From NCBI RefSeq assembly GCF_900188025.1, contig NZ_FZNO01000003.1:186001-250000 (forward strand): 64,000 nucleotides of DNA, in the 5' to 3' direction. The position numbers and the translations under genes were made by a program. This DNA is from Blastococcus mobilis. Its GTDB lineage: Bacteria > Actinomycetota > Actinomycetes > Mycobacteriales > Geodermatophilaceae. Shown one piece after another: positions 2,902 to 64,000 of the stretch. Within the stretch, counting starts at the first letter, position 1, and each line of letters begins with the position of its first letter. Under the pieces are notes generated by a model. The model saw only the letters and a program-made list of their open reading frames with translations. It was not told where the DNA came from and ran no database searches.

Positions 2902-3155
2902 CACGGTGGACCCGGCGCGGGGCCGGAGGCTCCCGCCGGGGACACACGGACACGCTCGTCGCCGCAGGGATAAGGCTCCTGGCGGCGGTGTCGGCCGGTA
3001 GGCCGACAGTGTCACGGTGCACCCGGCGCGGGGCCGGAGGCTCCCGCCGGGGACACACGCGGGGCTCGTCGCCGCTGGGTTACGACTCCTGGCCGCGGTG
3101 TCGTCCGGAGGACGACCGTGTCATGGCGGTGTCGGCCGGTAGGCCGACCATGTCA
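2902..3155. repeat. Repeat family A: two 111-bp tandem copies plus one extra palindromic unit
   Basis: This fills the space between the flavin reductase stop and the adoK stop. Two direct copies with a 111-bp period (2902-3012 and 3013-3123) each begin CACGGTGSACCCGGCGCG, contain GGCCGGAGGCTCCCGCC, and end in a palindromic unit (2985-3014; 3095-3123). A third palindrome stands at 3126-3155. Arms are TCGGCC/GGCCGA in units 1 and 3 but TCGTCC/GGACGA in unit 2, so both arms changed together. Each unit ends in TGTCA. The last TGTCA, read on the minus strand, supplies the adoK stop codon. A transcription-terminating or REP-like role is inferred. Confidence 0.85.
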
Positions 3156-4127
3156 CGGCAGGTGGGCGGCGACCTCGTCGGCGGCGTCGGCGCCGAACGC
3201 GTCCGCGAAGCGGGCGAGGAAGCTCTCCCGGGGCAGCTCGTACTCCTGGGTGCCGATGACCTCGACGGCAGCGGTGGCCACGGCGGACCCGAGCTGGGTG
3301 GCCCGCTCCAGGCTGAGACCCCACATGCGGCCGGCGATGAAGCCGGCGCGCAGGGCATCGCCGCCGCCGGTGGGCTCGACCGGCTTGGTCTCGGGGACCG
3401 CGATCACCGCGATCGGTTCGGCGTCGGCCTGACGGACCAGAACCCCGTCGGCGGCGAGGGTGGTCACCCAGGTCCCCACCCGGGCGAGCACCTCGTTCTC
3501 GTTCCAGCCGGTCTTCTGCTGGAGGAGGTGGGACTCGTACTCGTTGGTGAACAGCAGATCCGCGCCGTCGACCAGGTCACGGATCATCTCGCCGTCGGCC
3601 CAGGCCAGCTGCTGGCTGGGGTCGGCGGCGAACCGGTAACCGCGCTGCCGGCACTCCTGCGTGTGGCGCACCATGGCCTTCGGGTCGTTCGGGCCGACCA
3701 CCACCAGGTCGAACCCACCGACGCGCTCGGCGACGGGGCCCAACTCGATGTCGGCCGCCTCCGACATGGCGCCCGAGTAGAACGAGGCGATCTGGTTGTT
3801 GACGATGTCGGTCGTGCAGACGAACCGGGCGGTGTGCTTGAGCTCCGACCAGTGCACGCTCTGGGTGTCCACCCCGTGCCGGGTCAGCCACGCGTCGTAG
3901 TCGGCGAAGTCGTTGCCGACCGCGCCCACGAGGACGGGCCGCAGGCCGAGCAGTCCCAGCCCGTAGGCCATGTTCGCGCCGGCGCCGCCACGGTGCTGCA
4001 CGAGGTCGTCGACGAGGAAGGACAGGGAGACGTTCTCCATCTGGCCCTCGACGAACTGCTCGGTGAACTTCCCCGGGAAGGTCATCAGGTGGTCGGTGGC
4101 GATGGAGCCGGTGACGGCGACGGGCAC
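3153..4127 (-). CDS. adoK: Adenosine kinase, PfkB family (Rv2202c type)
   Basis: A 324-residue PfkB-family kinase that follows the M. tuberculosis adenosine kinase (Rv2202c) closely in length and motifs. It starts VAVTGSIATDHLM, with a substrate-loop RGGAGANMA near residue 47, GAMSEA near 119 and the catalytic EPTGGGDALRAGF with Asp257. It would phosphorylate adenosine to AMP in purine salvage. The GTG start at 4127 is chosen for the AGGGAG ribosome site 6 nt upstream. The stop codon TGA is the first triplet of a family A palindromic repeat. In M. tuberculosis this gene follows asnB; here asnB is 58 kb away. Confidence 0.88.
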   Translation of the reverse strand: MPVAVTGSIATDHLMTFPGKFTEQFVEGQMENVSLSFLVDDLVQHRGGAGANMAYGLGLLGLRPVLVGAVGNDFADYDAWLTRHGVDTQSVHWSELKHTARFVCTTDIVNNQIASFYSGAMSEAADIELGPVAERVGGFDLVVVGPNDPKAMVRHTQECRQRGYRFAADPSQQLAWADGEMIRDLVDGADLLFTNEYESHLLQQKTGWNENEVLARVGTWVTTLAADGVLVRQADAEPIAVIAVPETKPVEPTGGGDALRAGFIAGRMWGLSLERATQLGSAVATAAVEVIGTQEYELPRESFLARFADAFGADAADEVAAHLP

Positions 4128-4205
4128 GGAACGCTCCCTGGGTGCTGGATCGGCGGAACGGCCGCACGATGTCGGGCGCCCTGCCGCTGAGCAGGGCACC
4201 CGCAC

Positions 4206-4211
4206 ACCTTA
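4206..4211 (-). promoter_or_regulatory. Candidate -10 box (TAAGGT) for adoK
   Basis: TAAGGT on the minus strand lies about 78 nt before the adoK GTG. A 7-bp hairpin (GCCCTGC/GCAGGGC, 4178-4197) would sit in the leader. Assignment rests only on the TANNNT pattern. Confidence 0.3.
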
Positions 4212-4242
4212 GGAGCCGCGCCCCGCGTGTGGGTCGTCGGCG

Positions 4243-4896
4243 TCAATCGGTCAGCATCCGGCGCAGGGAGTTCCCGAGCTGGACGACGCCGACAGCGCCG
4301 AGCAGGGCTCCCACAGCGGCGCCCGAGGTGACCACCGGGCCGGCGAATCCGAACCCCGCGACGACCCCCGCGCCGACCAGCGTCATCCCGGTCATCGCGA
4401 TCCGGGTCGGGCGTTCCCACACCGACAGGGCGCCGGTCTCGGCCACCCCGGCCTGTCCGGCTCGAGCCCGCAGGTAGTCGGGCAGCCAGCAGAGCGCACC
4501 GAAGGCGACGGCCAGCCAGCCGGGCGCGCCGCCCACCCACAGGGCCGCGGCGTACGCGGCCTCGGTCAGCCGGTCGACCACGGAGTCGAGGACGAAGCCG
4601 CGGCGAGATGCGCGTCCGGTGCCGATGGCGAGCGCACCGTCCAGGGAGTCCAGCAGACCGGACAGCGCGACGAGGATCCCGGCGGCGATCAGCCAGTGGC
4701 CTCCGGCGGCGGCCGGCCCGACCGCGGCGAGCGCCACCAACAGGCCGAGCGCGGTGGCGGCCAGCGGCGGCAGCCCCGCCAGCGGCCGGGCGAGGGTCCA
4801 GGCGATCGTCAGCCAGCCTCGCACGAGCGGGCGGTCGGTGGGCGTGTCGCCGTGCCAGCGCGACCAGGCCGCCAGGTACTCGTCCCGGCTCAGCAC
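4243..4896 (-). CDS. CDP-alcohol phosphatidyltransferase family membrane protein
   Basis: A 217-residue protein with several transmembrane segments and a CDP-alcohol phosphotransferase active-site motif near residues 90-115: DGALAIGTGRASRRG followed by FVLDSVVD. The four Asp/Gly metal-binding positions of the DGxxAR-x8-Gx3Dx3D signature are visible, but the Arg after the first Ala is Ile here. The family transfers a phosphoalcohol from CDP-linked donors in phospholipid or polar-head synthesis. The specific product is unknown. The GTG start at 4896 is chosen because GGAGGAG lies 5-6 nt upstream. It is divergent from the lipase gene. Confidence 0.75.
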   Translation of the reverse strand: MLSRDEYLAAWSRWHGDTPTDRPLVRGWLTIAWTLARPLAGLPPLAATALGLLVALAAVGPAAAGGHWLIAAGILVALSGLLDSLDGALAIGTGRASRRGFVLDSVVDRLTEAAYAAALWVGGAPGWLAVAFGALCWLPDYLRARAGQAGVAETGALSVWERPTRIAMTGMTLVGAGVVAGFGFAGPVVTSGAAVGALLGAVGVVQLGNSLRRMLTD

Positions 4897-4964
4897 GCCC
4901 ACTCCTCCACCCGCGCAGTCCACCAAACGGTGGCGCGAGCAGCGACAGGAGGGACAGTGAGAGG

Positions 4965-5762
4965 GTGCTCGCCGGCCTCGCCCCCGCTCGCCGACGCGTC
5001 GTCCTCACGCTGCTGGTCCTGGTCATCGCCGTGGCCGCTGCCCTCACGACCGCGCTGGTCGGCCGTCGGCCGGCTCAGGTGGACGGGCCGGTGCCCCAGA
5101 CCCGCCCGGGACCGGTCCTGCTGGTCCCCGGGTACGGAGGCGCGACCGGCTCCCTGCAGTCCCTGGCCGACCGGCTGACCGCCGCAGGCCGCGACGCCAC
5201 CGTGGTCGCGCTGCCGGGAGACGGGACGGGGGATCTCCACGCCGCCGCCGACGCGCTCGACGCCGCCGTGTCCGACGCCCTGGCACGCACCGGGGAGGCG
5301 ACCGTCGACGTGATCGGGTACTCGGCGGGCGGGATCGTGGCCCGCCTGTGGGTGGCCGACGGCAACGCCGGCGTCGTGCGCCGGGTGCTGACGCTGGGGT
5401 CGCCGCACCACGGCACCTCGCTGGCGGATCTGGCCGGGAGCGTCGCGTCGTGCCCGGTGGGCTGCCGGCAGCTGGGCACCGGCAGTGAGGTGCTGGCGGT
5501 CCTCAACGCCGGCGACGAGACACCCGACGGCCCCACCTGGGTCTCGGTCTGGACCGCTCAGGACGAGACCGTGACGCCGCCGGACTCGGCCCGACTGGAC
5601 GGCGCGCTCAACCTGACCGTGCAGTCGGTGTGCCCCGACGCCAGGGTCGGTCACGGAGACCTGCCACGCAGCCCGCTCGTGCAGCGGATCGTCCTCGCCG
5701 AGCTCGCCGCCGGGGAGCCGGTGGCACTGGGCCCCGCCGACTGCGCACGGCTCAGCGGCTGA
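4965..5762 (+). CDS. Secreted or membrane-anchored alpha/beta-hydrolase (lipase/esterase)
   Basis: A 265-residue protein with an N-terminal hydrophobic segment (residues about 12-32), probably a signal anchor or signal peptide. A lipase fold follows. The oxyanion region VLLVPGYGG is near 51-59 and the nucleophile elbow GYSAGG has Ser120. An acidic residue lies in AQDETVTP and a His in GHGDLP near the C-terminus, completing a plausible triad. Four cysteines in the second half suggest disulfides outside the cell. The GTG start has AGGAGGG 11 nt upstream. It converges with the ABC permease gene, leaving one base between stops. Substrate unknown. Confidence 0.78.
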   Translation: MLAGLAPARRRVVLTLLVLVIAVAAALTTALVGRRPAQVDGPVPQTRPGPVLLVPGYGGATGSLQSLADRLTAAGRDATVVALPGDGTGDLHAAADALDAAVSDALARTGEATVDVIGYSAGGIVARLWVADGNAGVVRRVLTLGSPHHGTSLADLAGSVASCPVGCRQLGTGSEVLAVLNAGDETPDGPTWVSVWTAQDETVTPPDSARLDGALNLTVQSVCPDARVGHGDLPRSPLVQRIVLAELAAGEPVALGPADCARLSG

Positions 5763-5763
5763 C

Positions 5764-6576
5764 TCAGCTGGTGACGTCCTTGGTGGTGAAGTTCGCCCAG
5801 GCCGCGACGAGCAGAACCCCGACGTAGACGCCCTGCAGCGCGAGCCCGCGGGTGATGTCCCGCCAGAGGATCGGGTCGCGGAAGAGGTCGACGAACGCCA
5901 GCCAGTAGCGCGTCGGGAGGTAGGGCGCGATCGGTGACGCGGCATCGAGGGTGAACAGCAGCGAGGAGGCGACCAGCACGGCGAGCGCACCCATGGTGGC
6001 GCCCAGAGGCGAGTCGGTGAGCGTGGAGAAGAAGAGCGCGAAGGCCGCGACACCGAGCATCGACACCGCCACGTAACCGATGGCGAGCAGGGTCCGGCCG
6101 CTGATCTCGTCCGGCGTCAAGGACGTGCCGGACACCGAGGTCCCACCGGCGACCGGCTGGGCGTCGAACATCGTCGTCCCGACGACGTAGCCGACGGCGG
6201 CGACGACGACCACGGTCACCAGCACGAACGCCAGGACGGCCACCAGCTTGGCCACAAGGAGCCGGGTGCGCCCGACCGGGCGGGCCAGCAGGTAGCGCAG
6301 CGTGCCGGCCTGCGCCTCGCCCGCGACGGAGTCCCCCGCGACGACCGCGACGGCGATGGGCAGGAACAGCGGCAGCACGATGGCCAGTGCCGCCAGCGGG
6401 TAGAGCGCGCCGTTGCTCAGGACGGCGGACAGGAACGGCGGGCCCTCGCCCGGCCGGGGCGCGAGGTCGGTGAGCACGAGGAGTACCGCCACGAGCACCG
6501 GCAAGGAATTGAGGACGGTGATCGTGGCCCACGTCCGCGGCCGCCGGAACATCTTGCGCAGTTCGACGAGGATCAT
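5764..6576 (-). CDS. ABC-2 type transporter permease
   Basis: A 270-residue membrane protein with about six hydrophobic segments. It opens with the cytoplasmic ELRKMFRRPRTW segment typical of ABC-2 permeases. The ARPVGRTRLLVAKL segment that joins TM2 and TM3 in this family is visible near residues 95-110. Its ATG overlaps the stop of the ATPase gene (ATGA), so it forms a two-component exporter with that ATPase. The exported substrate cannot be inferred; an RseB-like protein is encoded first in the same operon. Confidence 0.82.
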   Translation of the reverse strand: MILVELRKMFRRPRTWATITVLNSLPVLVAVLLVLTDLAPRPGEGPPFLSAVLSNGALYPLAALAIVLPLFLPIAVAVVAGDSVAGEAQAGTLRYLLARPVGRTRLLVAKLVAVLAFVLVTVVVVAAVGYVVGTTMFDAQPVAGGTSVSGTSLTPDEISGRTLLAIGYVAVSMLGVAAFALFFSTLTDSPLGATMGALAVLVASSLLFTLDAASPIAPYLPTRYWLAFVDLFRDPILWRDITRGLALQGVYVGVLLVAAWANFTTKDVTS

Positions 6577-7493
6577 CGGCGGACGTCCACCCGGTCGGGG
6601 CTGGCGCCTGCCGCGGCCAGCACGACCGCCTCGAGGCTCGGCCGCTCGAGGGCCAGGCCGTGCACGGGGACCCCCGCCGCCACCAGCCGGGCGTTGACCT
6701 CGGCCGGGTCGTCTCCCCGCACGATGACCCGCTCCCCCTCGACCGAGGTGACCCGCCCGTCGAGGGCGGCCCGGACCCGGTCGGGATCCGAGGTGTGGAC
6801 CACCGTCGACCCGGTCGGCGCGGTCAGCGTGGCCAGCCGGTCCTGGAGCACGAGTCGGCCCCGGTCCAGCACCCCGACGCGGGTGCACAGCTGCTCGACC
6901 TCGGCCAGCAGGTGACTGGAGAGGAAGACCGTCGTGCCGTCGCGGTGCAGGTCCAGCAGCAGTTCGCGGACCTCCGAGATGCCCTGCGGGTCCAGACCGT
7001 TGGTGGGCTCGTCGAGCACCAGCAGCTCCGGACGGCGCAGGAGCGCGCCCGCGAGCCCCAGCCGCTGGCGCATGCCCATCGAGTAGGCCTTGACCGGCCG
7101 GCGGCCCACCCCACCGAGCCCGACCTGCTCGAGCGCGGCGGCCACCCGCCGGGACCGGGTCCGCCAGGATCCACCGCGGCCGGACGCGTCGAGCAGCGAC
7201 AGGTTCTCCCGCCCCGACAGGTGCCCGTAGTGGGCCGGGCCCTCGATCAGCGCCCCCACCCGGTGCAGCACCCGTCGGCCGGCGCGCGGCATCCGCTCCC
7301 CCAGCAGCTCGATCTCACCGCTCGTGGGCAGGACCAGGCCCAGCAGCATGCGGACGGTGGTCGTCTTCCCGGAGCCGTTGGCGCCGAGGAAGCCGTAGAT
7401 GTCGCCCTGCTGGACGCCCAGGTCGATTCCGTCGACCGCACGCACCCTGCCGTAGCGCTTGACGAGTCCGGACGTGGCGATGACCGTGGTCAC
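6573..7493 (-). CDS. ABC transporter ATP-binding protein (exporter type)
   Basis: A 306-residue nucleotide-binding subunit. Walker A is GANGSGKTT near residues 38-46. The family signature region is YSMGMRQRLGLAG and Walker B is LLVLDEPTNGLDPQG, followed by a SSHLLAEVEQLC switch. The C-terminal hundred residues form the extra domain common in ABC-2 exporter ATPases of the CcmA/NatA type. The GTG start overlaps the RseB-like stop (GTGA), and the ATG of the permease overlaps its own stop. All three genes are therefore probably co-translated. Confidence 0.88.
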   Translation of the reverse strand: MTTVIATSGLVKRYGRVRAVDGIDLGVQQGDIYGFLGANGSGKTTTVRMLLGLVLPTSGEIELLGERMPRAGRRVLHRVGALIEGPAHYGHLSGRENLSLLDASGRGGSWRTRSRRVAAALEQVGLGGVGRRPVKAYSMGMRQRLGLAGALLRRPELLVLDEPTNGLDPQGISEVRELLLDLHRDGTTVFLSSHLLAEVEQLCTRVGVLDRGRLVLQDRLATLTAPTGSTVVHTSDPDRVRAALDGRVTSVEGERVIVRGDDPAEVNARLVAAGVPVHGLALERPSLEAVVLAAAGASPDRVDVRR

Positions 7494-8623
7494 GGGCGCC
7501 CCCCGAGCTCGGGCATCTCCGCTGCCGCGGCGGCCAGCGCGTCGAGGGTCACCGAACCCGTGAGCACGTAGGCGCGCCCGCCCGGCCGGTCGACGACCAT
7601 GAGGCCCAGCGGGCCGATCGATGCCCGGACCCCGAGCTCGTCCACGACCGCACCGGGAGACGCGCCGAGGGCGCGCCGCAGCTCCTCGGTCAGGCGGCCG
7701 GGAGCCGGCACGACCGCGAGCAGGGTCACGCCTCTGCCGTACACCCCGAGCCCGCGGGGAAGCCCCTCCATCGGACGCCGGTCGAGACCGGCCAGCGTCA
7801 AGGGCAGTCCGGGACCGGTGACCTGCTGGGCGGCCTCCACGAGGTCGACCCCCCGGTCCTCCCGCACGACCGCCCCCGCCGGCGGCGAGAAGGCGGTGAC
7901 CTCGGGCCCGGGAGCGGCGAGCTCCAGGTCGAGGAAGCGGGTGTCCAGGGCGGGCCGGCGAGCGTCCTCTCCGTACACCTGCACCTGCAGCGGCACCCCG
8001 CTGTCGCCGTCCACCCAGACGTCCACCCGGCTCACCGAGGACGCCTGGTCGACGGGCGACAGCCGCAGCCCGAGACCGTCGCGCCCGGCCACGCGGCGGG
8101 CGCCGATGCGGGACAGCTCGCCATCGGCGGCCTCCGACAGCAGCCGCCGCCCGAGCGCGCTGGGCAGCAGATCGAGGGGCGCGGGCAGCTCGAGCGGGCC
8201 CAGCGCGCCGCGGGTCGCGGTCGCGCTCTCGTACTCCCACGTCCAGGTGCCGGTCGCGTCGCGGTGCGTGCTGATCTCCCCGGTGGGGGTGACGACATCC
8301 ACCCGGTTGTCGGCCGGGCCCCGCCACCAGACGCGCATCAGGGTCCGGTCGCTGAAGAGGTCGGCCACCGAGGCCAGCTGGTCGGTGACCGGCAGGGCCA
8401 GCCCGCCGGCCGATTCGGCGTATCCGGAGAACGCCACCATGTCACTGGCCAGGACGGCGCTCCGCAGGTCGGCCGCGGGGACATCGCGATCCGACGCGGG
8501 GATCGCCCCGATCAGGGACGGGAGACCGGCGAGGAGCGCGACCAGCCCGGCCACGACCGCCCACCGCCGGCGGGCTCCGAAACCCGGCGAGACCACGGCA
8601 GACACGGTACGTGTGGAGGGCAC
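7490..8623 (-). CDS. RseB/MucB-like exported protein
   Basis: A 377-residue protein with an N-terminal membrane segment (WAVVAGLVALLAGLPSLIGA, about residues 21-40) and a beta-rich exterior region. It contains the MRVWWRGPADNRVDVVTPTGE and DVWVDGDSGVPLQVQVYGE patterns seen in the LolA/RseB-like fold. In other bacteria such proteins bind lipids or act on anti-sigma factors; here there is no adjacent sigma factor. It is the first gene of an operon with an ABC exporter, linked by a GTGA overlap. A role sensing or delivering a lipid-like substrate is an inference. The start is uncertain: GTG 8623 was used, GTG 8602 is possible. Confidence 0.6.
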   Translation of the reverse strand: MPSTRTVSAVVSPGFGARRRWAVVAGLVALLAGLPSLIGAIPASDRDVPAADLRSAVLASDMVAFSGYAESAGGLALPVTDQLASVADLFSDRTLMRVWWRGPADNRVDVVTPTGEISTHRDATGTWTWEYESATATRGALGPLELPAPLDLLPSALGRRLLSEAADGELSRIGARRVAGRDGLGLRLSPVDQASSVSRVDVWVDGDSGVPLQVQVYGEDARRPALDTRFLDLELAAPGPEVTAFSPPAGAVVREDRGVDLVEAAQQVTGPGLPLTLAGLDRRPMEGLPRGLGVYGRGVTLLAVVPAPGRLTEELRRALGASPGAVVDELGVRASIGPLGLMVVDRPGGRAYVLTGSVTLDALAAAAAEMPELGGRP

Positions 8624-8754
8624 GCAGCCACCGGCGTCCGAGCGTCCGCCCTCGGCGGTGTGCCGATCCCGCCGCCGGCCGTCGACCACCACCTCGTCGG
8701 CACCGGTCTCCCGGCCTGGCACAACCGCGACCTGCGATGCGGCGGCCGGGCCCC

Positions 8755-8760
8755 TACCGT
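8755..8760 (+). promoter_or_regulatory. -10 box (TACCGT) for leaderless gene at 8768
   Basis: TACCGT ends 7 nt before the GTG at 8768, and there is no ribosome-binding site. Transcription would begin at the start codon. Confidence 0.5.
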
Positions 8761-8767
8761 CGGGTCC

Positions 8768-10304: not shown

Positions 10305-10382
10305 CGAGAGTACGGACGGTTCCGCGCGGGCGGCCGTGCGCCGGAGCACGACATTTCTCACGATCTTTTCTCCGGGCCGCAT

Positions 10383-16184: not shown

Positions 16185-16189
16185 CCTGC

Positions 16190-16267
16190 GCGCGGGCCGT
16201 GACTGGCGCATCGAGGTGGACCACCACCGGGGAGCGGCCTGCACCGTCCCGCCGTGCGCCTGGGCAC
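16190..16267 (+). ncRNA. ZTP riboswitch (pfl motif) upstream of glyA
   Basis: The leader carries the conserved pieces of the pfl/ZTP aptamer in order. First GGGCCGTGACTGGCG (16194-16208), then a GTGG/CCAC hairpin running into CACCGGGGAGCG, then a downstream GCGCCTGGGCA (16256-16266). It ends about 30 nt before the glyA start. ZTP/ZMP accumulates when 10-formyltetrahydrofolate is scarce, and this aptamer class controls one-carbon and purine genes, commonly including glyA. Whether control is at transcription or translation is not clear from the sequence. Confidence 0.85.
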
Positions 16268-16295
16268 TCTCCCGACGTCACGTGCAGGAGCCTTC

Positions 16296-19927: not shown

Positions 19928-20848
19928 GTGCAGCAGTTCCGTTCCGCGCCCCCGATCGGGGCGCACATTCAGATCAAGGGCGGGCTCGCCAAGGGCGGGC
20001 TGGCCTACACCGACGCCGTCGGCGCGCGGGCCGTGCAGGTGTTCGTGGGCAATCCGCGCGGCTGGAAGCTGACGGCGGGCGACCCCCGCCAGGACGCCCT
20101 GTTCGTCGAGGGCTGCGCCGAGCGGGGCGTTCCCTCGTTCATCCACACGCCGTTCCTGGTCAACGTCGGCTCCCCCACCGAGGCGACCGTCGAGCAGTCG
20201 ATCGCCTCCATCGCGCACAACCTCGCGCGCGGCGCGCAGCTCGGGTGCGCGGGCGTGGTCGTCCACGCCGGGTCCGCCGTCGGTGAGGACCGCTACGAGG
20301 CCGCGCTGCGCCAGCTGCACGAGCGGCTGCTGCCGGTGCTGGACGGGCTGGCGGAGGACGGCCCCCGGCTGCTGATCGAGCCGACCGCCGGGGGTGGCAG
20401 GTCGCTGGCCGCCACCGTCGAGGACCTCGGGCCGTACCTCGCCGCCCTGGAGGGCCACCCGCTGGTCGGCGTCTGCTTCGACACCTGCCACGCCTGGGCC
20501 GCCGGGCACGACCTGTCGGTGCCCGGCGGGATGACGGCGACGCTCGACGCCCTGGAGGCAACCGTCGGCCCGGGTCGGCTCGGGCTGGTGCACGCCAACG
20601 ACTCCCTCGACGAGTGCGGCTCCAAGCGGGACCGGCACACGACGATCGGGGAGGGTTCGATCGGGGCGGCTCCGTTCGCCGAGCTGCTGGCCCATCCCTC
20701 GATGTCCGGCGTCGCCGTGGTGGTGGAGACCCCGAGCGAGCGCGACGGCTCCCCGTCCGCGGGGCACAAGCGGGACATCGACCTGCTCAATGATCTCGCG
20801 GTCCTCCGGACCGCACCGCGGCCAACTGCCGCCCCCCTGGCGAGCTGA
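19928..20848 (+). CDS. nfo: Endonuclease IV (AP endonuclease)
   Basis: A 306-residue Zn-dependent TIM-barrel nuclease that cuts DNA at abasic sites in base-excision repair. Metal ligands are visible in family motifs: VVVHAGS, LLIEPTAGGG (Glu near residue 155), GVCFDTCHAWAAGHD, LVHANDS, RHTTIGEGSIG and VVVETPSERDG. The GTG start comes 2 nt after the kinase stop, so it is probably co-transcribed with pknL. The length is slightly above the E. coli enzyme. Confidence 0.92.
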   Translation: MQQFRSAPPIGAHIQIKGGLAKGGLAYTDAVGARAVQVFVGNPRGWKLTAGDPRQDALFVEGCAERGVPSFIHTPFLVNVGSPTEATVEQSIASIAHNLARGAQLGCAGVVVHAGSAVGEDRYEAALRQLHERLLPVLDGLAEDGPRLLIEPTAGGGRSLAATVEDLGPYLAALEGHPLVGVCFDTCHAWAAGHDLSVPGGMTATLDALEATVGPGRLGLVHANDSLDECGSKRDRHTTIGEGSIGAAPFAELLAHPSMSGVAVVVETPSERDGSPSAGHKRDIDLLNDLAVLRTAPRPTAAPLAS

Positions 20849-20869
20849 GCTGCTGCGTCACCCCTGCGC

Positions 20870-20897
20870 GGACCCCTCCGGGGCACCTCCGGGGTCC
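20870..20897 (+). terminator. Possible hairpin after nfo
   Basis: Arms GGACCCC and GGGGTCC are separated by 14 nt, with no T-run, in the space between nfo and the Nudix gene. Weak evidence only. Confidence 0.3.
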
Positions 20898-20957
20898 ACT
20901 CGGCGCGATTGGAGTCCCCCGCAGCCTGACCGCCGCGGCACAGGAAGAGAGGTCCGG

Positions 20958-22948: not shown

Positions 22949-23455
22949 GTGAAGACGCTGTTCCTCCTGCTCAAGGCGCACACCGCGGCTACGGCGATCA
23001 CCGCAGGTGTCGCGGTCGCCGGAGCCACCGGTGCGGTCGTCACCGTGGCCGGAGACGAGCCCCTCGTCCAGGTCGAGACCGTGGACACCGGACGGCCGGC
23101 GGCGGCCGACACCGCCGCACCCGACGAGCCCACCGAGACCCCGGAGGGCACCGCCGTCGCCGAGAGCACGCCCGCGCCGGCACCCACCCCGGCTCCGGCT
23201 CCGGCACCGGCCCCGGCCCCGGTTCCGGCACCGGTCGCGCCTCCGGCGCCCAAGCCCGCCCCGAAGCCGGCTCCCGCGCCCGCGCCGGCTCCGAAGCCGG
23301 CTCCCGTGCCCGCACCGGCTCCGCCCGTGCAGCAGCAGGAGCCCGGCGTCACCTACATTCCGGGGGACGGCACGGTGCTCTACAACCCGACGCAGGAGCA
23401 GATCGACGCGGAGAAGGACAAGTACATGCCGCCCGGCTTCACGCCGATCGGCTGA
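22949..23455 (+). CDS. Pro/Ala-rich exported protein of unknown function
   Basis: A 168-residue protein with an N-terminal hydrophobic segment (AATAITAGVAVAGATGAVVTV, about residues 13-33) acting as signal peptide or anchor. An acidic Thr/Glu/Ala region follows, then about 60 residues of Ala-Pro and Lys-Pro-Ala-Pro repeats (residues about 75-135). The C-terminus is short (YIPGDGTVLYNPTQEQIDAE). Pro-Ala tracts of this kind usually span the cell wall as an extended rod. The GTG at 22949 is the start nearest the signal sequence; the ribosome site is weak. No enzymatic domain is visible. Confidence 0.65.
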   Translation: MKTLFLLLKAHTAATAITAGVAVAGATGAVVTVAGDEPLVQVETVDTGRPAAADTAAPDEPTETPEGTAVAESTPAPAPTPAPAPAPAPAPVPAPVAPPAPKPAPKPAPAPAPAPKPAPVPAPAPPVQQQEPGVTYIPGDGTVLYNPTQEQIDAEKDKYMPPGFTPIG

Positions 23456-37772: not shown

Positions 37773-37913
37773 AGCCGTCGCGAGTGGGACCCGGAGGGTT
37801 CCGCGTAGCGACGACGAAGCGGCTCGTCGCCGCCGGAGGACGGCACGTGGCCGCGGTGTCGTCCGGAAGGACGACAGTGTCACGGCTGTGTCGTCCGGAG
37901 GACGACAGTGTCA
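37773..37913. repeat. Repeat family A: leader module plus two palindromic units
   Basis: Module CGCGAGTGGGACCCGGAGGG ... GACGAAGCGGCTCGTCGCC (37773-37852) is followed by palindromic units 37853-37882 and 37885-37913, each TCGTCC/GGACGA ending in TGTCA. It sits between two plus-strand genes. The same module appears in reverse at the right end of the window. Confidence 0.85.
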
Positions 37914-39187: not shown

Positions 39188-39350
39188 TGACGAGCGGGCG
39201 CCGGAGGCTCCCCGAGGAACGGCGGGTGGCCGCCCTGCGAGGCGGTCCGACGAAGGGGGACCGGAGGTCTCCCTGAGGAGGGCCGGCACCGGCTCAGCAC
39301 AACGAGATCAGCTACTTGGCCGCGGTGCGGTCCGTAGGACCGCGATGTCC
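39188..39350. repeat. Repeat family A: diverged module plus one palindromic unit overlapping a gene
   Basis: The diverged module (GACGAGCGGGCGCCGGAGG, then GACGAAGGGGGACCGGAGG) runs from the TIGR00300 stop to the ROK stop. The palindromic unit 39322-39350 has CGGTCC/GGACCG arms. This unit lies inside the ROK kinase reading frame and encodes its last residues. Confidence 0.75.
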
Positions 39351-40319
39351 CAGAGCGGCAAGGTCCTGTCGCACCAGGTCCGCGGCGCCCACCAGCCCCG
39401 CCTGGGGTCCGAGCTCGGCGGCGGCGATGCGGGGGCCGGGACGGAACCCGCGCCCGGGGAGGGCCCGGTCCAGCCGCTCCCGCGCCGGGGCGAGCACCAT
39501 CTCGCCCAGCTTGCTGACCCCGCCGCCGATCACCACGACCTCGGGGTCGAGGACGGCGGCCAGGTCGGCGATCCCCTGGCCCAGCCAGATGCCGACCTCC
39601 GTGACCAGTTCCAGGGCCAGCGGGTCGCCCTCGGCGGCGGCGCGGGCGACGTCCTCACCGGTGAGCCGGTCGGGCTCGTGGTCCACCCGTTCCAGCAGCC
39701 CCGCGGCGGCGGCCGGAGACGTGCGGGCGACCTCGCGGGCGGTCTGCCCGAGGGCCGTGCCGCTGGCGTACTGCTCCCAGCAGCCGCGGTTGCCGCAGGC
39801 GCACAGCCGACCGTCGGGGACGACGCGCATGTGCCCCCACTCCCCCGCCACACCGTGCGAGCCGCGCCGCAGCCGGCCGTCCAGGACGATCCCGCCGCCG
39901 ATACCGGTGCCGAGCGTGATCATCAGCGCCAGGTCGGCGCCCCGTGCGGCGCCGTACCGGTACTCGGCCCACGCCGCGGCGTCGGCGTCGTTGCCCACCC
40001 AGAGCGGGCGCTGCAGCCGGGCGGCGAGGTCCTTGCGCAGCGTCGAGTTGCGCCAGGCCAGGTGCGGGCTGAACAGCACCGTGTCACCGGTGCTGTCGAA
40101 CCATCCGGCGGCGCCCACGCCGACGCCCACCAGCTCGCCGTCGTGACAGGCGGCGAGCTCCTCGACAACGGCGACGATCGCGTCCTCGGTGTCGGTGACC
40201 GAAGCACCCGGGGTGGCGCGGCGCGCGATGGCGACCACGGTGCCGTCGGCGGCCACGATGCCGCCCGCGACCTTCGTGCCGCCGACGTCGATGCCGAGCG
40301 CGGCAGGCCCGGCCGTCAT
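39312..40319 (-). CDS. ROK family glucokinase
   Basis: A 335-residue ROK-family sugar kinase. The ATP site is LGIDVGGTKVAGG (residues 8-20), the sugar site GNDADAAAWAEYRYG near 109, and TLGTGIGGGIVLDG near 133. The ROK zinc motif CACGNRGCWEQYASG is near 176 with all Cys present. VVIGGGVSKLGE lies near the C-terminus. It phosphorylates glucose or a related sugar. The final 12 residues (GHRGPTDRTAAK) are encoded by a family A repeat unit; the TGA found there in asnB and adoK is GGA here. The ATG overlaps the upstream stop. Confidence 0.88.
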   Translation of the reverse strand: MTAGPAALGIDVGGTKVAGGIVAADGTVVAIARRATPGASVTDTEDAIVAVVEELAACHDGELVGVGVGAAGWFDSTGDTVLFSPHLAWRNSTLRKDLAARLQRPLWVGNDADAAAWAEYRYGAARGADLALMITLGTGIGGGIVLDGRLRRGSHGVAGEWGHMRVVPDGRLCACGNRGCWEQYASGTALGQTAREVARTSPAAAAGLLERVDHEPDRLTGEDVARAAAEGDPLALELVTEVGIWLGQGIADLAAVLDPEVVVIGGGVSKLGEMVLAPARERLDRALPGRGFRPGPRIAAAELGPQAGLVGAADLVRQDLAALGHRGPTDRTAAK

Positions 40320-47900: not shown

Positions 47901-47930
47901 GAGCGGCGGCTCTCCGTTTCTTCCTCTGCA

Positions 47931-48090
47931 ACCGCCTACCGAGTTAGCTGACGGGTTCGGGCTGGGAAGACTGGCCCTATCCCCTGCGCACCGGCGAACC
48001 GGCCCTACAGGAGAACTCACCCCAGGACTGCGGTGGGTCCCCGGCTCGCCGTCGAGCACCTCTGCAGGCGCCGTCAGGCGATTAGGCGGT
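47931..48090 (-). ncRNA. c-di-AMP riboswitch (ydaO/yuaA class)
   Basis: On the minus strand the leader shows the class hallmarks in order. The closing arm CACCGCCTAATCGCCTGACGG is at the 5' end (given by position; core ACCGCCTAATCG). GAGCCGGGGACCCACCGCA follows, then GGGGTGAGTTCTCC. The strongly conserved 3' part CCCAGCCCGAACCCGTCAGC runs into TAACTCGGTAGGCGG, which re-pairs with the 5' arm. The class commonly precedes wall hydrolase genes in actinobacteria. The rest of the 386-bp space to 48286 holds its promoter and nothing else recognised. Confidence 0.85.
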
Positions 48091-48143
48091 GCCCGTCCGA
48101 GGTCACCCCTCTGCGGGTGACGACCACTCGGTCGGACCGGCAG

Positions 48144-54469: not shown

Positions 54470-54476
54470 GACCCTC

Positions 54477-55091: not shown

Positions 55092-55098
55092 GGAACCG

Positions 55099-58771: not shown

Positions 58772-58792
58772 GCGCAGCACGACCAGCACGGC

Positions 58793-58828
58793 CAGCAGGG
58801 CCCCGGTGGATTTCACCGGGGCCTGCTG
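58793..58828 (+). terminator. Terminator hairpin after qcrB
   Basis: CAGCAGGGCCCCGGTG pairs with CACCGGGGCC-TGCTG (one bulge), 5-nt loop, 21 nt after the qcrB stop. It ends the ctaE-qcrCAB operon. Confidence 0.78.
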
Positions 58829-59382
58829 CTGTATCCGGAGCGGCCGCCGCAGCGCGGGGACGACCTGCACTCACTCCCCCGCATCGTGGAGCGTTCCGGG
58901 TGCCTCATGAGTTCTGCAGGACACCGGGAGCCGTAGGTCGACCTGAGGAGCCGCCGGCACCGTGCGCCCGCTGGCGCCTCGCCCCTAGCTCGGGCCTCGG
59001 ACCGGACTCCGGCCCGCTCCCCAGCCGGTGGGCTCGGCCGCCGCGACGACACACGTCGCCCCTGTTCCGCCCCGGCGGGGGTGGCTCCGCGTCTCGGGGG
59101 CCCGCGAGGCGGATGCCGGGCGCACGGGACGGCGGGACGCGCGCCAGGAGCCGGGGGCCTTCACTCGCCCCGCGCGCCCCTCCCCCACGCGCGTTCGCGG
59201 GTGCGTCCCCAGGCATTGGTCGTGCTGGTCGTGCATCGCTCGCGGTGCTGCCCCCGCGATGCGCGTACACAACCGGCACCCGGTCCGGCTCCTTCTGGGC
59301 CGTTCCCCTGCTCGAGGCCCGCTGCAGAACTCCAGGAGCGCGAGGGATGCTCCAGGAGCGGGCCGCACGATGCCCTGAACGA
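58829..59382. other. Unexplained 554-bp intergenic segment with nested inverted repeats
   Basis: There is no convincing gene between the two convergent cytochrome operons. Long open frames on both strands are Arg/Pro/Gly-rich and lack family patterns. Two nested inverted repeats bracket most of the segment: GCATCGTG (58880-58887) with CACGATGC (59366-59373), and GAGTTCTGCAG (58908-58918) with CTGCAGAACTC (59322-59332). A short direct repeat CTCCAGGAGCG occurs at 59330 and 59350. It could be a degenerate non-autonomous mobile element or a structured RNA; neither is proven. M. tuberculosis has Rv2197c and mmpS3 here. Confidence 0.5.
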
Positions 59383-59421
59383 CCGAGGGCTCCTCCCGCG
59401 CGTTGCGGGAGGAGCCCTCGG
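59383..59421 (-). terminator. Terminator hairpin after ctaF
   Basis: Perfect 17-bp stem (CCGAGGGCTCCTCCCGC and complement) with 5-nt loop, 16 nt beyond the ctaF stop on the minus strand. Confidence 0.8.
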
Positions 59422-59436
59422 TGGAGCGAGCTCGGA

Positions 59437-59841
59437 TCAGCTCTGCTGGGCGTTCTGCCCCACGTAGTACTCGAAGAGCAGGCCACCGATGGTGATCAGC
59501 AGTGCGGCACCGGCGATGAGGATCAGCCAGGAGTAGAAGAAGGCCAGCGCCAGGCCCATCAGCGCCGCCGAGGCCGCCAGGCCGAGGGGCCAGTAGCTCG
59601 CCGGGGGGAAGAAGCCCAGCTCGCCCGCGCCCTCGGCGATGTCGGCGTCCTTGCGGTCCTCCGGGCGGGCGTCGATGCGGCGGGAGACGAACCAGAAGAA
59701 CCCGCCGATCAGGCCGGTGAGGCCACCGGAGAGGAGGAGCGCCGTGGTCCCGATCGGCTCGCGCGACCACCAGCCGTACACCACGGCGGCGATGACGCAG
59801 AACAGCGCGATGATGTTGAAGATGAGCGCCTCGACCTTCAC
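59437..59841 (-). CDS. ctaF: Cytochrome c oxidase subunit IV (actinobacterial)
   Basis: A 134-residue membrane protein with four hydrophobic segments. It starts MKVEALIFNIIALFCVIAAV and has the family GGLTGLIGGFFWFVSRRIDARPED loop (core WFVSRRIDARPED, near residues 50-62). A second helix pair follows GELGFFPPASYWPLG. It matches the accessory subunit IV of the aa3 oxidase encoded after ctaC in mycobacteria and corynebacteria (Rv2199c). It lies 51 bp downstream of ctaC and ends at a strong hairpin. Confidence 0.9.
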   Translation of the reverse strand: MKVEALIFNIIALFCVIAAVVYGWWSREPIGTTALLLSGGLTGLIGGFFWFVSRRIDARPEDRKDADIAEGAGELGFFPPASYWPLGLAASAALMGLALAFFYSWLILIAGAALLITIGGLLFEYYVGQNAQQS

Positions 59842-59892
59842 GGCCGTGCCTCCTCGTGCGTCGGGACGATCAGGGGCGGGACGGGGCCGAAC

Positions 59893-60777
59893 TCAGCCAC
59901 CGGACTGCTGCTGGTTGATGTTCTTGTTCTGCAGCGCCTCGAACGGGGTGGTCGCCGAGGACAGCCCCGGCTGGCCGATCGCCTCCAGCGCGTCGTACGT
60001 GTCCAGCCCCGACTCACGGGCCTCGAGGTAGGCGTCGTAGTCCTCACCGGACACCGCGCGGACCTCGAAGTTCATGTACGCGTGGTACGTGCCGCACAGC
60101 TCGGCGCAGCGCCCGACGTAGGCGCCCTCCTCCTGGACGGTCACCTCGAAGACGTTGTCCCGGCCGTTCTCGTTGCCGGGGATGACGTCGAGCTTGAAGA
60201 GGAACTCGGGGACCCAGAACGAGTGGATGACGTCTGCGGAGGCCACCTCGAACCGGATGCTCCGGTCGGTCGGCACCACCAGGATCGGGATCTCGGAGCT
60301 GGTGCCGACGGTGTTGACCGGCTCGCCGTCCTCGCCCGTGGTCTCCGGGTACACGAACTGCCAGTTCCACTTGAAGGCGTTGACCGCGATCGTCTCGTCG
60401 GGGTCGTCGCTGCGCTCCATCACCCGGTTCTGCACGACCACCGTGTAGAAGAACAGCCCGGCGATGATCAGGAACGGCAGGATCGTGTAGACGATCTCCA
60501 GCGGCAGGTTGTACGCCGTCTGCTTCGGCAGCTCGTCGCTGCGCTTCCGGTGACGCACCACCGAGTAGAAGATCAGCCCCCAGACGGCGAAGCCGACGAC
60601 GAGTGCCGCGATGACCGAACCGGTCCACAGCTCCCGCATGGACTCGGACCGGTCGGTGATGCCGTCCGGCCAGCCGAACCGCCAGAACTCGTTGTTCGGC
60701 ATCTCACATCCGGTGAGGGTCACGACCCCCAGGAGACCGAGCGCGGCCAGCCGCGCGAGCCTGTTGCCTCGAGCCAC
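59893..60777 (-). CDS. ctaC: Cytochrome c oxidase subunit II
   Basis: A 294-residue lipoprotein-type subunit II. A signal sequence with lipobox LTGC (Cys near residue 24) precedes two transmembrane helices (about 50-70 and 95-115) and an exterior cupredoxin domain. The binuclear CuA site ligands are His in VIHSFWVPEF and the cluster CAELCGTYHAYM near 225-236 (two Cys, His, Met). It accepts electrons from the QcrC haems. The GTG start has GAGGAGG about 9 nt upstream. Same position and strand as Rv2200c. Confidence 0.94.
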   Translation of the reverse strand: MARGNRLARLAALGLLGVVTLTGCEMPNNEFWRFGWPDGITDRSESMRELWTGSVIAALVVGFAVWGLIFYSVVRHRKRSDELPKQTAYNLPLEIVYTILPFLIIAGLFFYTVVVQNRVMERSDDPDETIAVNAFKWNWQFVYPETTGEDGEPVNTVGTSSEIPILVVPTDRSIRFEVASADVIHSFWVPEFLFKLDVIPGNENGRDNVFEVTVQEEGAYVGRCAELCGTYHAYMNFEVRAVSGEDYDAYLEARESGLDTYDALEAIGQPGLSSATTPFEALQNKNINQQQSGG

Positions 60778-61049
60778 TGCTCGCTGCCTCCTCGTCCTCC
60801 GTCCGGCTGCCCGGACGGTCCGTCCAGCGGGGCGCCCGCCGGTTCTGGCGGACGGCATCCTCGCCGATCACAGTGTGGGCCGAGACTAGCCGACACCGCT
60901 CGGCGGCCGAGCACCGGAGACACCGCCCCGGCGGGTCGCAGGGGTGGGAGTCGGCCGGGACCCGATCTGGTCCCGCATGCGACCGGAGGACTGCGCCGGG
61001 CGCCGGCGTGCGGCGGCACGAGGTCGGCCGGCACCCCGCCACCGACGGT

Positions 61050-61055
61050 TACAGT
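61050..61055 (+). promoter_or_regulatory. -10 box (TACAGT) for the gene at 61063
   Basis: TACAGT ends 7 nt before GTG 61063. An AGGAG overlaps the spacer but is too close to the start to act as a ribosome site. Confidence 0.5.
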
Positions 61056-61062
61056 CAGGAGT

Positions 61063-61431
61063 GTGTTCTCCCGGCTGCTGACCCCCAAGTGGGTGCTGCT
61101 GCACCTGCTCGTGGCGGTCCTCTTCGTGGCCACCTTCTTCCTCGGCTACTGGCAGCTGACCAAGGCCGAGGCCGGCGGCGGCGCCGTCAACTGGAGCTAC
61201 GCCCTGCAGTGGCCTCTGTACGGCTTCATGGGCCTGTGGTTCTACCTGCGCATGGTCAAGCTGGAGCTGAACCGCGACCCGGACGAGGACGCCCCCGGGG
61301 CGGCGGTCGTGCTCTACCAGCGCCCCCGCATCGACACGTCAGGAGATCCCGAACTGGCCGCCTACAACGCCTATCTCGCCGAGCTCAACGAGCGCGCCCT
61401 CGGCCAGCGGAGCTCCGGCAATGGCCGGTGA
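61063..61431 (+). CDS. Small membrane protein, conserved in actinobacteria
   Basis: A 122-residue protein with two transmembrane helices: WVLLHLLVAVLFVATFFLGYW (about residues 10-30, given by position) and SYALQWPLYGFMGLWFYLRM. A WQLTKAE segment follows the first helix, and the tail is acidic. The pattern is reminiscent of small proteins encoded beside oxidase genes, so a role in respiratory complex assembly is possible but unproven. Leaderless GTG start. Its 3' end overlaps the DUF3817 gene by 11 bp. Confidence 0.75.
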   Translation: MFSRLLTPKWVLLHLLVAVLFVATFFLGYWQLTKAEAGGGAVNWSYALQWPLYGFMGLWFYLRMVKLELNRDPDEDAPGAAVVLYQRPRIDTSGDPELAAYNAYLAELNERALGQRSSGNGR

Positions 61432-61771
61432 CCGGGTGGCGCCGGCGCGCGACTCCGAGCAGGCGATCGCCGCGGCACTCCAGCGCTATCGCGTCATGGC
61501 CAACGTCGTCGGGGTTCTGCTGATCCTCCTGATCGTCGTCGCCGTCCCGCTGAAGTACCTGGCCGGGATGCCGACACCGGTCACGATCCTCGGCACCGCC
61601 CATGGCTGGCTCTACGCGCTCTTCTTCCTGTCCGCCGTCGACCTGGCGCTTCGGGCGAAGTGGAGCCTCAAGGGATCGATCGTCACGCTGGTCGCCGGAA
61701 CCATCCCGTTCCTCTCCTTCGTCGCCGAGCGCACGGTCACACGCAAGATGCGGGTCGGCGAGCGCGTGTGA
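61421..61771 (+). CDS. DUF3817 family membrane protein
   Basis: A 116-residue protein with three transmembrane helices. It has the family pattern ALQRYRVMANVVGVLLILLI, then LKYLAGMPTPVTILGTAHGWLYALFF (core GTAHGWLYALFF near residue 58-69). The third helix ends in FVAERTVTRKM. DUF3817 proteins are small integral membrane proteins of unknown function, often encoded near glyA- or asnB-type genes in actinobacteria. The ATG lies within the previous gene, so the two are co-translated. Confidence 0.85.
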   Translation: MAGDRVAPARDSEQAIAAALQRYRVMANVVGVLLILLIVVAVPLKYLAGMPTPVTILGTAHGWLYALFFLSAVDLALRAKWSLKGSIVTLVAGTIPFLSFVAERTVTRKMRVGERV

Positions 61772-61864
61772 CGCAGGCCCCGTCCCGGCCGCTGCGTGTC
61801 TCCCCCACCCCTGAGCACCTCCCGAACTCTTGAGCCCCTCCCCGATCCCGAGGACCTGCGCCTG

Positions 61865-63796
61865 ATGTGTGGCCTGCTCGCCTATTTCTCCACCGACGCC
61901 GACCGGGTCGACGACGTCACGGTCGCCGACGTGCGGCAAGCACAGCACTGCATGCGCCACCGCGGCCCTGACGAGAACGAGGCCTGGTGGGACGACCGGG
62001 CGGTCTTCGGATTCAACCGGCTGTCCTTCATCGACATCGAGAACAGCCACCAGCCGATGCCGTACGCGGACGGCCGGTACCGGATCGTCTTCAACGGTGA
62101 GATCTACAACTACCTGGAGCTGCGGGCCGAACTGGCCGCCGCCGGGGCCACGTTCGCGACCGAAGGCGACACCGAGGCGATCGTCGCCGGCTACCACCTG
62201 TGGGGCGAGGACGTCGTCCTGAAGCTGCGTGGCATGTTCGCGTTCGTCATCTGGGACACCCACACACAGACCGTGTTCGGCGCCCGGGACCCCTTCGGCA
62301 TCAAGCCGCTCTTCACCGCTCGCCTCGCCGACGGCGGGATCGTCTTCGGCTCCGAGAAGAAGGCGTTGCTGGAGCTGCTCGGTGGCACCAAGGGCGCCGG
62401 CGGTGTGGATGCCGCGTCACTGCAGCACTACCTGACCCTCCAGTACGTCCCCGAGCCCGCGACGCTGCACGCGGGCATCCGCCGCATCGAGAGCGGGACC
62501 AGCTTCACGGTCGCGGACGGCGAGCTGCGGACGACCCGCTACTTCCATCCCACGTTCCCGATCCGGCCGGTCGCCAAGGACGAGGAGCAGGCGCTCTACG
62601 ACCGGATCGCCGACGTGCTCGACGACTCGGTGCGGATGCACATGCGGGCCGACGTCACGGTGGGCTCGTTCCTGTCCGGCGGCATCGACTCGACCGCCAT
62701 CGCGGCGCTCGCCAAGCGCTACAACCCGAAGCTGCTGACCTTCACGACCGGGTTCGAGCGTGCGGGCTTCTCCGAGATCGACGTCGCGGCCGAGTCCGCG
62801 GCGGCGATCGGCGTCGAGCACATCACCAAGGTGGTGACGCCGGACGAGTTCGCCGACGCCATCCCCCTGGTGGTCTGGTACCTCGACGACCCGGTCGCCG
62901 ACCCCGCGCTCGTGCCGCTGTACTTCATCGCCCGCGAGGCGCGGAAGCACGTGAAGGTCGTGCTGTCGGGTGAGGGCGCCGACGAGCTGTTCGGCGGCTA
63001 CAACATCTACCGCGAGCCACTGTCACTGGCCGCGTTCGAGAAGCTGCCGACCGGCGTCCGCCGCGCTCTCGGCAGGCTCTCCACGCGGCTGCCGGACGGC
63101 ATGCGCGGCAAGGACCTGCTGCGCCGCGGCTCAATCCCGCTGGAGCAGCGGTACTACGGCAACGCGCGGATCTTCCGCGACGACGAGCTGGGCTTCCTGG
63201 AGCGCCGGGATCCGGACCTCTCGCACGTGGCCGTCACCGCCGAGCTCTACCGGCGCACCCGGGCCGCCGGCTACGACGACGTGACGGCGATGCAGTACGT
63301 GGACCTGTTCACCTGGCTGCGGGGGGACATCCTCGTCAAGGCCGACAAGATGACGATGGCGAACTCGCTCGAGCTGCGGGTGCCCTTCCTCGACCCGGAG
63401 GTCTTCAGGGTCGCGAGCACGCTCCCGGTCGACCAGCGGGTGACCAAGGAGACGACGAAGTACGCCCTCCGGCGGGCGCTCGAGCAGATCGTGCCCCCGC
63501 ACGTGCTCAACCGCCGCAAGCTCGGGTTCCCGGTCCCCACCCGTCACTGGCTCGCCGAGCAGCTGCACGACTGGGCCCGGCAGGTCATCGAGGAGAGCCA
63601 GACCGAGGAGTGGCTGGACAAGCAGCAGGTGCTGGCCATGTTGGCCGCGCACCGGGACAACCAGCGCAACGGCTCCGCGGTGGACTACTCGCGCAAGCTC
63701 TGGACGCTGCTCGTCTTCATGGTGTGGCACGGCATCTTCGTCGAGGAGCGGATCAAGCCGGTCATCCCGGAGACGGTCTACCCCGTTCGGCTGTGA
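61865..63796 (+). CDS. asnB: Asparagine synthetase (glutamine-hydrolysing)
   Basis: A 643-residue class II amidotransferase. After removal of Met1 the nucleophile Cys2 (MCGLLAYF) begins the glutaminase domain, with RHRGPDE near residue 36 and FNGEIYNYLELR near 77. The synthetase domain has the ATP-pyrophosphatase loop SFLSGGIDSTAIA near 268-280 and SGEGADELFGGYN near 373. The ATG is fixed by the need for Cys at position 2. Rv2201 occupies this place, and the gene may affect wall-peptide amidation as well as asparagine supply. Its TGA stop opens a four-unit tandem repeat. Confidence 0.94.
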   Translation: MCGLLAYFSTDADRVDDVTVADVRQAQHCMRHRGPDENEAWWDDRAVFGFNRLSFIDIENSHQPMPYADGRYRIVFNGEIYNYLELRAELAAAGATFATEGDTEAIVAGYHLWGEDVVLKLRGMFAFVIWDTHTQTVFGARDPFGIKPLFTARLADGGIVFGSEKKALLELLGGTKGAGGVDAASLQHYLTLQYVPEPATLHAGIRRIESGTSFTVADGELRTTRYFHPTFPIRPVAKDEEQALYDRIADVLDDSVRMHMRADVTVGSFLSGGIDSTAIAALAKRYNPKLLTFTTGFERAGFSEIDVAAESAAAIGVEHITKVVTPDEFADAIPLVVWYLDDPVADPALVPLYFIAREARKHVKVVLSGEGADELFGGYNIYREPLSLAAFEKLPTGVRRALGRLSTRLPDGMRGKDLLRRGSIPLEQRYYGNARIFRDDELGFLERRDPDLSHVAVTAELYRRTRAAGYDDVTAMQYVDLFTWLRGDILVKADKMTMANSLELRVPFLDPEVFRVASTLPVDQRVTKETTKYALRRALEQIVPPHVLNRRKLGFPVPTRHWLAEQLHDWARQVIEESQTEEWLDKQQVLAMLAAHRDNQRNGSAVDYSRKLWTLLVFMVWHGIFVEERIKPVIPETVYPVRL

Positions 63797-64000
63797 CATG
63801 GCGGTCCGCCGGACCGCACCGTCATGACATGGCGGTCCGCCGGACCGCACCGTCATGACATGGCGGTCCGCCGGACCGCACCGTCATGACATGGCGGTCC
63901 TCCGGACCGCACCGCGACCGGTTGCCGTCCCCCTGCCGTGTCGAGCCGCTTCGTCGCTCCTTGCGGAGACCCTCCGGGCTTCCACTCGTCACGACCCCTG
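63794..64000 (-). repeat. Repeat family A: four 31-bp tandem palindromic units plus leader module (reverse orientation)
   Basis: Four units begin at 63794, 63825, 63856 and 63887. Each reads TGACATGGCGGTCC, a 3-nt centre, GGACCGCACCGTCA; the last has TCC as centre and a changed end. The first TGA is the asnB stop codon. Beyond 63918 the sequence, read in reverse, is GTGACGAGTGGAAGCCCGGA ... GACGAAGCGGCTCG, the same module as at 37773. The element is cut by the window end. Confidence 0.88.

Follow-up and report, generated by a model that had tools for sequence, protein, structure and literature searches.

The closest described systems to the element treated here are the repetitive extragenic palindromes (REPs), and among them the GTAG and CGTC super-families, i.e., dispersed short palindromes that lie mainly between convergent or same-direction genes, near gene 3' ends (PMC3733652). 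The termini of GTAG REPs often supply a stop codon, and CGTC REPs are described in the same survey as lacking a known transposase; the phyla that it names for the two super-families do not include Actinobacteria, and the string 'actinobact' does not occur in its main text (PMC3733652). Ribosomes are reported to stall at REPs that lie no more than 15 nt from a stop codon (PMC12306157). Here an interspersed palindromic repeat is described from a stretch of 64,000 nucleotides of Blastococcus mobilis (assembly GCF_900188025.1, contig NZ_FZNO01000003.1, positions 186,001 to 250,000 of the forward strand), which is called the window and to which all positions refer. The repeat is probably a REP-like composite element of the family Geodermatophilaceae. 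That REPs sit at stop codons has been described before; what is new is the composite form, the host group and the missing transposase.

A typical copy consists of a hairpin B, a conserved linker and then one to four A hairpins, often ending in TGTCA. The genome of B. mobilis, represented by fetched stretches and the window, yielded 76 A units at E ≤ 0.02, which fall into 59 sites (one unit at 47 sites, two at eight, three at three and four at one). The foot GCGGTG is present in 63 of the 76 units. The A stem is 7 bp long as modelled, with G-C as the outermost pair in 73 of the 74 distinct units. At 47 of the 59 sites the A units are preceded by a B motif, and at 40 of the 59 the spacing from B to A is 66-74 nt; alignment of those 40 sites reveals the conserved linker, GGCTC ... 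GGGGACGGCACNTGGCCGCGGTG. The outer stem of hairpin B varies in sequence, while its inner stem is formed around GGA; one variant of B starts with GTGGACC. Pairwise identity among the 40 composites has a median of 71% and a maximum of 87%. The leader segment that the original prediction placed ahead of the palindromes is real, and is more exactly hairpin B plus the conserved linker; the supposedly different 111-bp form at 2902 proved to be a variant of B, at the same distance from A as elsewhere. The view that this is a composite element and not a simple terminator is borne out by the shared B-to-A geometry, the alignment and the orthologous sites described below. Tandem duplications of B and linker occur at L040, L052, L059, L066 and L075, where the A hairpin at the junction is short or missing and a full A hairpin follows.

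A covariance model built from 17 A units was run on the draft genome (5.09 Mb, 88 contigs); among the best 150 of 22,655 candidates at least 82 reached E ≤ 1, the weakest of them being doubtful, so that the genome holds many more copies than the window. Related genera carry the element as well: 95 of 112 family genomes have a match at E ≤ 0.001 (64 candidates scored per genome). In an order-wide sample, where 24 candidates were scored for each genome, 43 of 298 genomes had a match at E ≤ 1e-4, all 43 of them Geodermatophilaceae, and in an earlier search of relatives one of 16 genomes from other families matched at E = 0.0066, which is compatible with chance. The host group is Geodermatophilaceae, with Blastococcus, Modestobacter and Geodermatophilus as named relatives; these three genera supply the named genomes that best match the ArgZ-like protein, next to one record labelled Bacillus and marked unverified.

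A scan of the window for GTG and TGTC enclosing a perfect stem of 6 bp recovered all ten palindromic units reported originally, i.e., three within 2985-3155, two within 37853-37913, the single one at 39322-39350 and, on the minus strand, four within 63794-63917, and the arm pairs TCGGCC/GGCCGA, TCGTCC/GGACGA and CGGTCC/GGACCG had been given correctly. The scan returned 15 rows: the ten units, three shifted readings of these and two unrelated places on the minus strand (60911 and 23108). The same scan returned 0, 0, 1, 0 and 2 rows of chance look-alikes when run on five third-order Markov samples of the window. The four sites stand, and a fifth had been missed at about 20789-20913 on the minus strand, with an A unit, linker and B hairpin; its A unit (20790-20821 as matched by the covariance model, E = 8.5e-06) is without TGTCA. 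A weak model match at 23082-23117 (E = 0.041) was left out of the counts. Within the common frame GCGGTG/TGTCA, TGTCC replaces TGTCA in the unit at 39322-39350. The description of the sites as intergenic fails for two of the five, where genes predicted by our own caller read through the A units: the ROK-family open reading frame (ORF) 39312-40319 on the minus strand runs through the unit at about 39320-39351 and ends in ...GHRGPTDRTAAK, and the gene predicted at 19928-20848 on the plus strand runs through the fifth-site unit and ends in ...AVLRTAPRPTAAPLAS. The features of the five sites are as follows.

2906-2945, plus strand: B hairpin, variant GTGGACCCGGCG..GGGGACAC, first composite of site 1 (ends approximate)
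2946-2984, plus strand: linker of site 1, from the alignment
2985-3014, plus strand: A unit, arm TCGGCC, from the window scan
3018-3057, plus strand: second B-variant hairpin of site 1, by direct reading (ends approximate)
3095-3123, plus strand: A unit, arm TCGTCC, from the window scan
3126-3155, plus strand: A unit, arm TCGGCC; its TCA at 3153-3155 serves the PfkB-family gene on the minus strand as stop codon (TGA)
3153-4127, minus strand: PfkB-family kinase gene, stop codon adjoining A (start by gene caller)
about 20789-20819, minus strand: fifth-site A unit, arm CGGTCC, without TGTCA, within the predicted gene 19928-20848
20854-20913, minus strand: fifth-site B hairpin region (ends approximate)
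37777-37812, plus strand: B hairpin of site 2, from motif and alignment
37813-37852, plus strand: linker of site 2, from the alignment
37853-37882, plus strand: A unit, arm TCGTCC, from the window scan
37885-37913, plus strand: A unit, arm TCGTCC, from the window scan
39188-39300, plus strand: diverged B-like hairpins of site 3, one by motif and the other by eye
39322-39350, plus strand: A unit, arm CGGTCC, TGTCC for TGTCA, within the 3'-terminal part of the ROK-family ORF
63794-63917, minus strand: tandem array of four A units, arm CGGTCC; the asparagine-synthase stop codon (TGA) is at 63794-63796
63918-63990, minus strand: linker and B hairpin of site 4 (ends approximate)
61865-63796, plus strand: asparagine-synthase gene, stop codon adjoining A (start by gene caller)

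The two predicted proteins whose genes read through a site (19928-20848, plus strand; 39312-40319, minus strand) have C-terminal tails encoded by A units without TGTCA.

When the copies are mapped against genes, as predicted by our own codon-score caller trained on 22 ORFs of the window and not taken from an annotation, the A end tends towards the stop codon of the opposing gene. An opposing stop lies no more than 10 nt from the A end at 33 of the 59 sites of B. mobilis and at 38 of 64 sites in other genomes. The corresponding value for random intergenic points is 2.5%, counted 0-10 nt outside a gene; the range used for the sites was -10 to +10, and a fair figure may be about twice as high (perhaps 5% with an equal window). 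The stop codon falls exactly at the TCA of TGTCA at 17 of the 59 sites and at 21 of the 64, the latter being taken from the best-scoring matches, which favours an intact TGTCA. The 17 exact stops in B. mobilis comprise 12 TGA codons and five that are TAA or TAG (L035, L037, L043, L051 and L062). Convergent neighbours flank 32 of the 59 and 26 of the 64 sites, compared with 76 of 329 intergenic regions longer than 60 nt in the same loci, the regions of the elements themselves being included in the 329. Three of the 59 sites lie wholly within a predicted gene.

The arms vary, and in the larger set the variation is compensated. Among the 74 distinct A units of B. mobilis (516 cells), in an alignment that was fitted to the model and so leans towards structure, 98.8% of the cells are paired against 82.2% in shuffles (reached in none of 500), the covariation score is 0.461 against 0.165, and 86 cells have a two-sided change against 26.9 (0 of 500). 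A MAFFT alignment of 17 A units is 100% paired, with a score of 0.366 against 0.113, and it has no excess over shuffles in pairs with a two-sided change (reached in 233 of 500) or in pair types (444 of 500). Paired changes are also seen at the same place between genomes: the A arms at asnB are GCGGTCC/GGACCGC in G000 and GCGATCC/GGATCGC in G012, and the B arms at one place are GTCGTTCC/GGAACGAC in L290 and GTCGTCCC/GGGACGAC in L292. The original prediction took compensating arm changes as a sign of selection for the fold. The co-variation holds in the larger set, but alone it is no proof of selection, because hairpin-templated correction of DNA leaves the same mark; same-place paired changes are predicted alike by selection for pairing and by such correction.

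The kinds of mismatch differ between the two hairpins. In the A stems of B. mobilis and the other genomes, 1073 of 1099 cells are Watson-Crick, six G.T and five A.C, with a few rows misregistered. The outer arms of B, in 53 copies, have 363 Watson-Crick, 30 G.T and nine A.C cells of 424; these copies were kept from 120 motif places after 39 had been dropped for want of a linker and 28 for weak arms, a choice that selects for pairing. The G.T excess in B hints at folding of the plus strand as a single strand, be it RNA or DNA. Differences in arm class between genomes are given no weight because copies from other genomes were chosen by score with a model trained without GATCC arms. Likewise, the plus strand folds better in all of 40 composites (means -63.8 and -52.8 kcal/mol), and this gap is given no weight because it is mostly base composition in the composite that was compared with shuffles (z -2.0 for the plus and -1.2 for the minus strand; 10 of 13 kcal/mol). 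The four tandem A units of site 4 fold far below shuffles (z -4.7), as expected for near-identical palindromes.

Orthologous sites are filled, empty or reversed. Occupancy was read by eye and then checked with the model, whose matches include neither G014 at pfkB nor G005 at asnB. Among 12 asnB loci, A stands against asnB in G000 and G012, and eight are empty; in G011 the element is reversed, with A against the convergent gene, and G005 has a degenerate form, by eye only. The asnB stop codon of G000 and G012 is followed by the element and then by a GC-rich, terminator-like hairpin; in G011 the element is on the far side of such a hairpin, and the intergenic region holds one in the empty genomes read as well. 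In the 15 loci read for the gene of L035, with a match in G001 and two more fragments left aside, A stands against this gene in two loci and against its convergent neighbour in six, while seven are empty, several of them with a different neighbour. At pfkB (16 loci) five are filled according to the model and a sixth (G014) by eye, G001 is doubtful and nine are empty. A model search of 80 loci of an ArgZ-like gene found downstream elements at L083, L098, L106, L115 and L149, and reversed ones at L093 and L117. Filled and empty sites across species require gains or losses, and opposite orientations within one intergenic region are most simply explained by separate insertions.

Other repeats were met at such gene ends. 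Downstream of the queried gene, L164, L167, L170, L269 and L271 have another palindromic segment with ends of about TTGATCATCGGC / GCCGATGATCAA. It recurs in several species of the genus and may represent a small inverted-repeat element of its own. A repeated 3'-flank segment of about CCCGTCCAGAGGCTCGCC..GCGAGGGGTGAGG..GACGGGGTCCTT follows genes in several genomes (L086, L110, L168, L057, L072 and L061).

Measured against a general definition of REPs (a palindrome of 20-50 nt in many dispersed copies), the element is a short palindrome with many dispersed, mainly extragenic copies near stop codons downstream of genes. It resembles the GTAG and CGTC REPs in its dispersed short palindromes near gene 3' ends and in termini that supply stop codons, and differs from them in its flanks GCGGTG and TGTCA, in its several alternative arm sequences and in a unit that includes a second, unrelated hairpin and a linker. 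Assignment to the GTAG super-family was rejected, as the 5' foot of the hairpin ends in GGTG, not GTAG, and the 112 family genomes are without a Y1 transposase. The survey gives CGTC REPs a CGTC, TGTC or CCTC end, a stem of 8-9 bp from A-T pairs, a loop of 4-5 and the tail CCA (PMC3733652); this super-family was rejected too, the stem here being 7 bp from G-C, with TGTC on the 3' side and no CCA tail. The initial impression that no family of this form had been described was thus partly right: a REP class with this placement is on record, and neither of the two super-families compared matches. With REP/RAYT systems (RAYT, REP-associated tyrosine transposase), bacterial interspersed mosaic elements (BIMEs) and REP doublets forming hairpins (REPINs), as portrayed in PMC8266576, the element shares a motif-footed hairpin, a composite arrangement and dispersal. 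REPINs and BIMEs join inverted copies of one palindrome (PMC2817692), whereas here two different hairpins keep their order and spacing. A BIME or REPIN is also rejected because the nearest pair of model matches on opposite strands is 201 nt apart, same-strand pairs within 150 nt number 23 in B. mobilis and 24 in other genomes, and B differs from A in sequence. The BOX elements of Streptococcus pneumoniae are modular repeats with a variable number of internal units; the comparison with them is by description. Mycobacterial interspersed repetitive units (MIRU) are actinobacterial repeats at gene ends that overlap stop codons; they lie between same-direction genes, at stop/start overlaps, and in this they differ from the element, again compared by description. 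Rfam matches above the cut-offs in the window were confined to a c-di-AMP riboswitch (47917-48098, minus strand) and a ZMP/ZTP riboswitch (16189-16272, plus strand), both away from the element, and three element loci gave one match, far below the cut-off. No earlier description of the composite was found in the open literature consulted, including the text of PMC9686282.

The REP-associated tyrosine transposase whose presence had been suggested for checking was looked for as Y1 (RAYT/IS200, PF01797) and found in none of the 112 family genomes, with matches in five of 14 known genomes as positive control; this rules against RAYT/IS200 as the spreader and sets the element apart from REP/RAYT systems. 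The Actinobacteridae sampled in one survey carry only subclass 1.1 (TnpA-IS200) (PMC6006769). A Y2 transposase of the IS91 type (PF04986) was matched in one of the 112 genomes (L297, G089), which is itself without A matches; the control matched in none of the 14 known genomes, so this test is weaker. Among the 25 families listed of 243 Pfam families in proteins beside elements, none is a transposase (142 of 146 proteins scanned, L015:1109-1360, L021:48-626, L060:2208-2480 and window:21657-22832 being left out).

The observations to be explained are the shared geometry, the paired changes, the placement at stop codons, the alternative orientations and the separate hairpin at asnB. Under the favoured reading of a REP-like composite, copies would arise by insertion through a non-autonomous route, and would persist at places where a stop codon precedes the A hairpin by about 4 nt. 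The element would be transcribed in the mRNA of the gene on the A side and form a hairpin in the 3' untranslated region (3' UTR), which might delay ribosomes at termination or hold back 3' exonucleases, roles that have been proposed for the REPs of Escherichia coli; within this reading the 3'-UTR function is tentative and stands at somewhat less than even chances. A narrower version, a lineage-specific mobile module of two hairpins that homes to stop codons without a Y1 or recognised enzyme and whose stems are compensated for a role in translation termination, appears improbable. Several results weigh against the favoured reading. Pairs with a two-sided change (5 of 7 against 3.8, reached in four of 500 shuffles) are barely above shuffles, and further pair types (8 against 7.3, 198 of 500) are not in excess. 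The A stems give no sign of selection at the RNA level, because G.T and A.C are equally rare in them. TGTCA is exact at the end of only 34 of the 76 units, and no opposing stop lies within 10 nt at 26 of the 59 and 26 of the 64 sites. The element is not needed at the gene of L063, because only one of 16 genomes (G000) has it in the 257 nt after the stop. With no pair of the 40 composites above 87% identity there is no sign of recent transposition or of a burst of recent copies, and the Y1 and Y2 searches brought no candidate enzyme.

Part of this evidence fits a functionless miniature inverted-repeat transposable element, with arms kept perfect by hairpin-templated DNA correction and with a placement that reflects target preference or the TGA of the element itself. 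Its patchy occupancy and opposite orientations, its ability to truncate or extend proteins, and the equal rarity of G.T and A.C in the A stems (as a DNA-level process would give) agree with such an origin. It is nevertheless rather unlikely: near-identical copies are lacking, linker and geometry are kept at a median identity of 71%, five of the 17 exact stops are not the TGA of the element, and G.T exceeds A.C in the outer arms of B, although G.T is the milder mismatch in single-stranded DNA too. The enrichment between convergent genes is what would be expected of a bidirectional intrinsic terminator in which B ends one gene and A the other, and GC-rich hairpins directly after stop codons suit it as well. 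By eye, however, the aligned copies show no T run behind the A stem, many orthologous gene ends are without the element, and asnB has its own GC-rich hairpin whether or not the element is there, the element being found on either side of such a hairpin; the chance of a terminator is accordingly put low, the separate hairpin and the missing T runs disfavouring a simple one in particular. The same enrichment, together with the fact that E. coli BIMEs bind gyrase and IHF, would suit a protein-bound DNA site between convergent genes (a cruciform, nucleoid or topoisomerase site). This is a poor prospect as well, leaving both the nucleotide-level placement at the stop codon of one gene and the G.T excess in B unexplained.

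The REPs described in the papers cited here are mainly proteobacterial, and those of the GTAG kind are explained by RAYT transposases. Since orthologous sites are found filled, empty and reversed, they offer natural tests of a hairpin placed about 4 nt after a stop codon, with regard to termination and to mRNA 3' ends. A composite that extends through a family of Actinobacteria, in which no Y1 was found, raises the question of what spreads such repeats.

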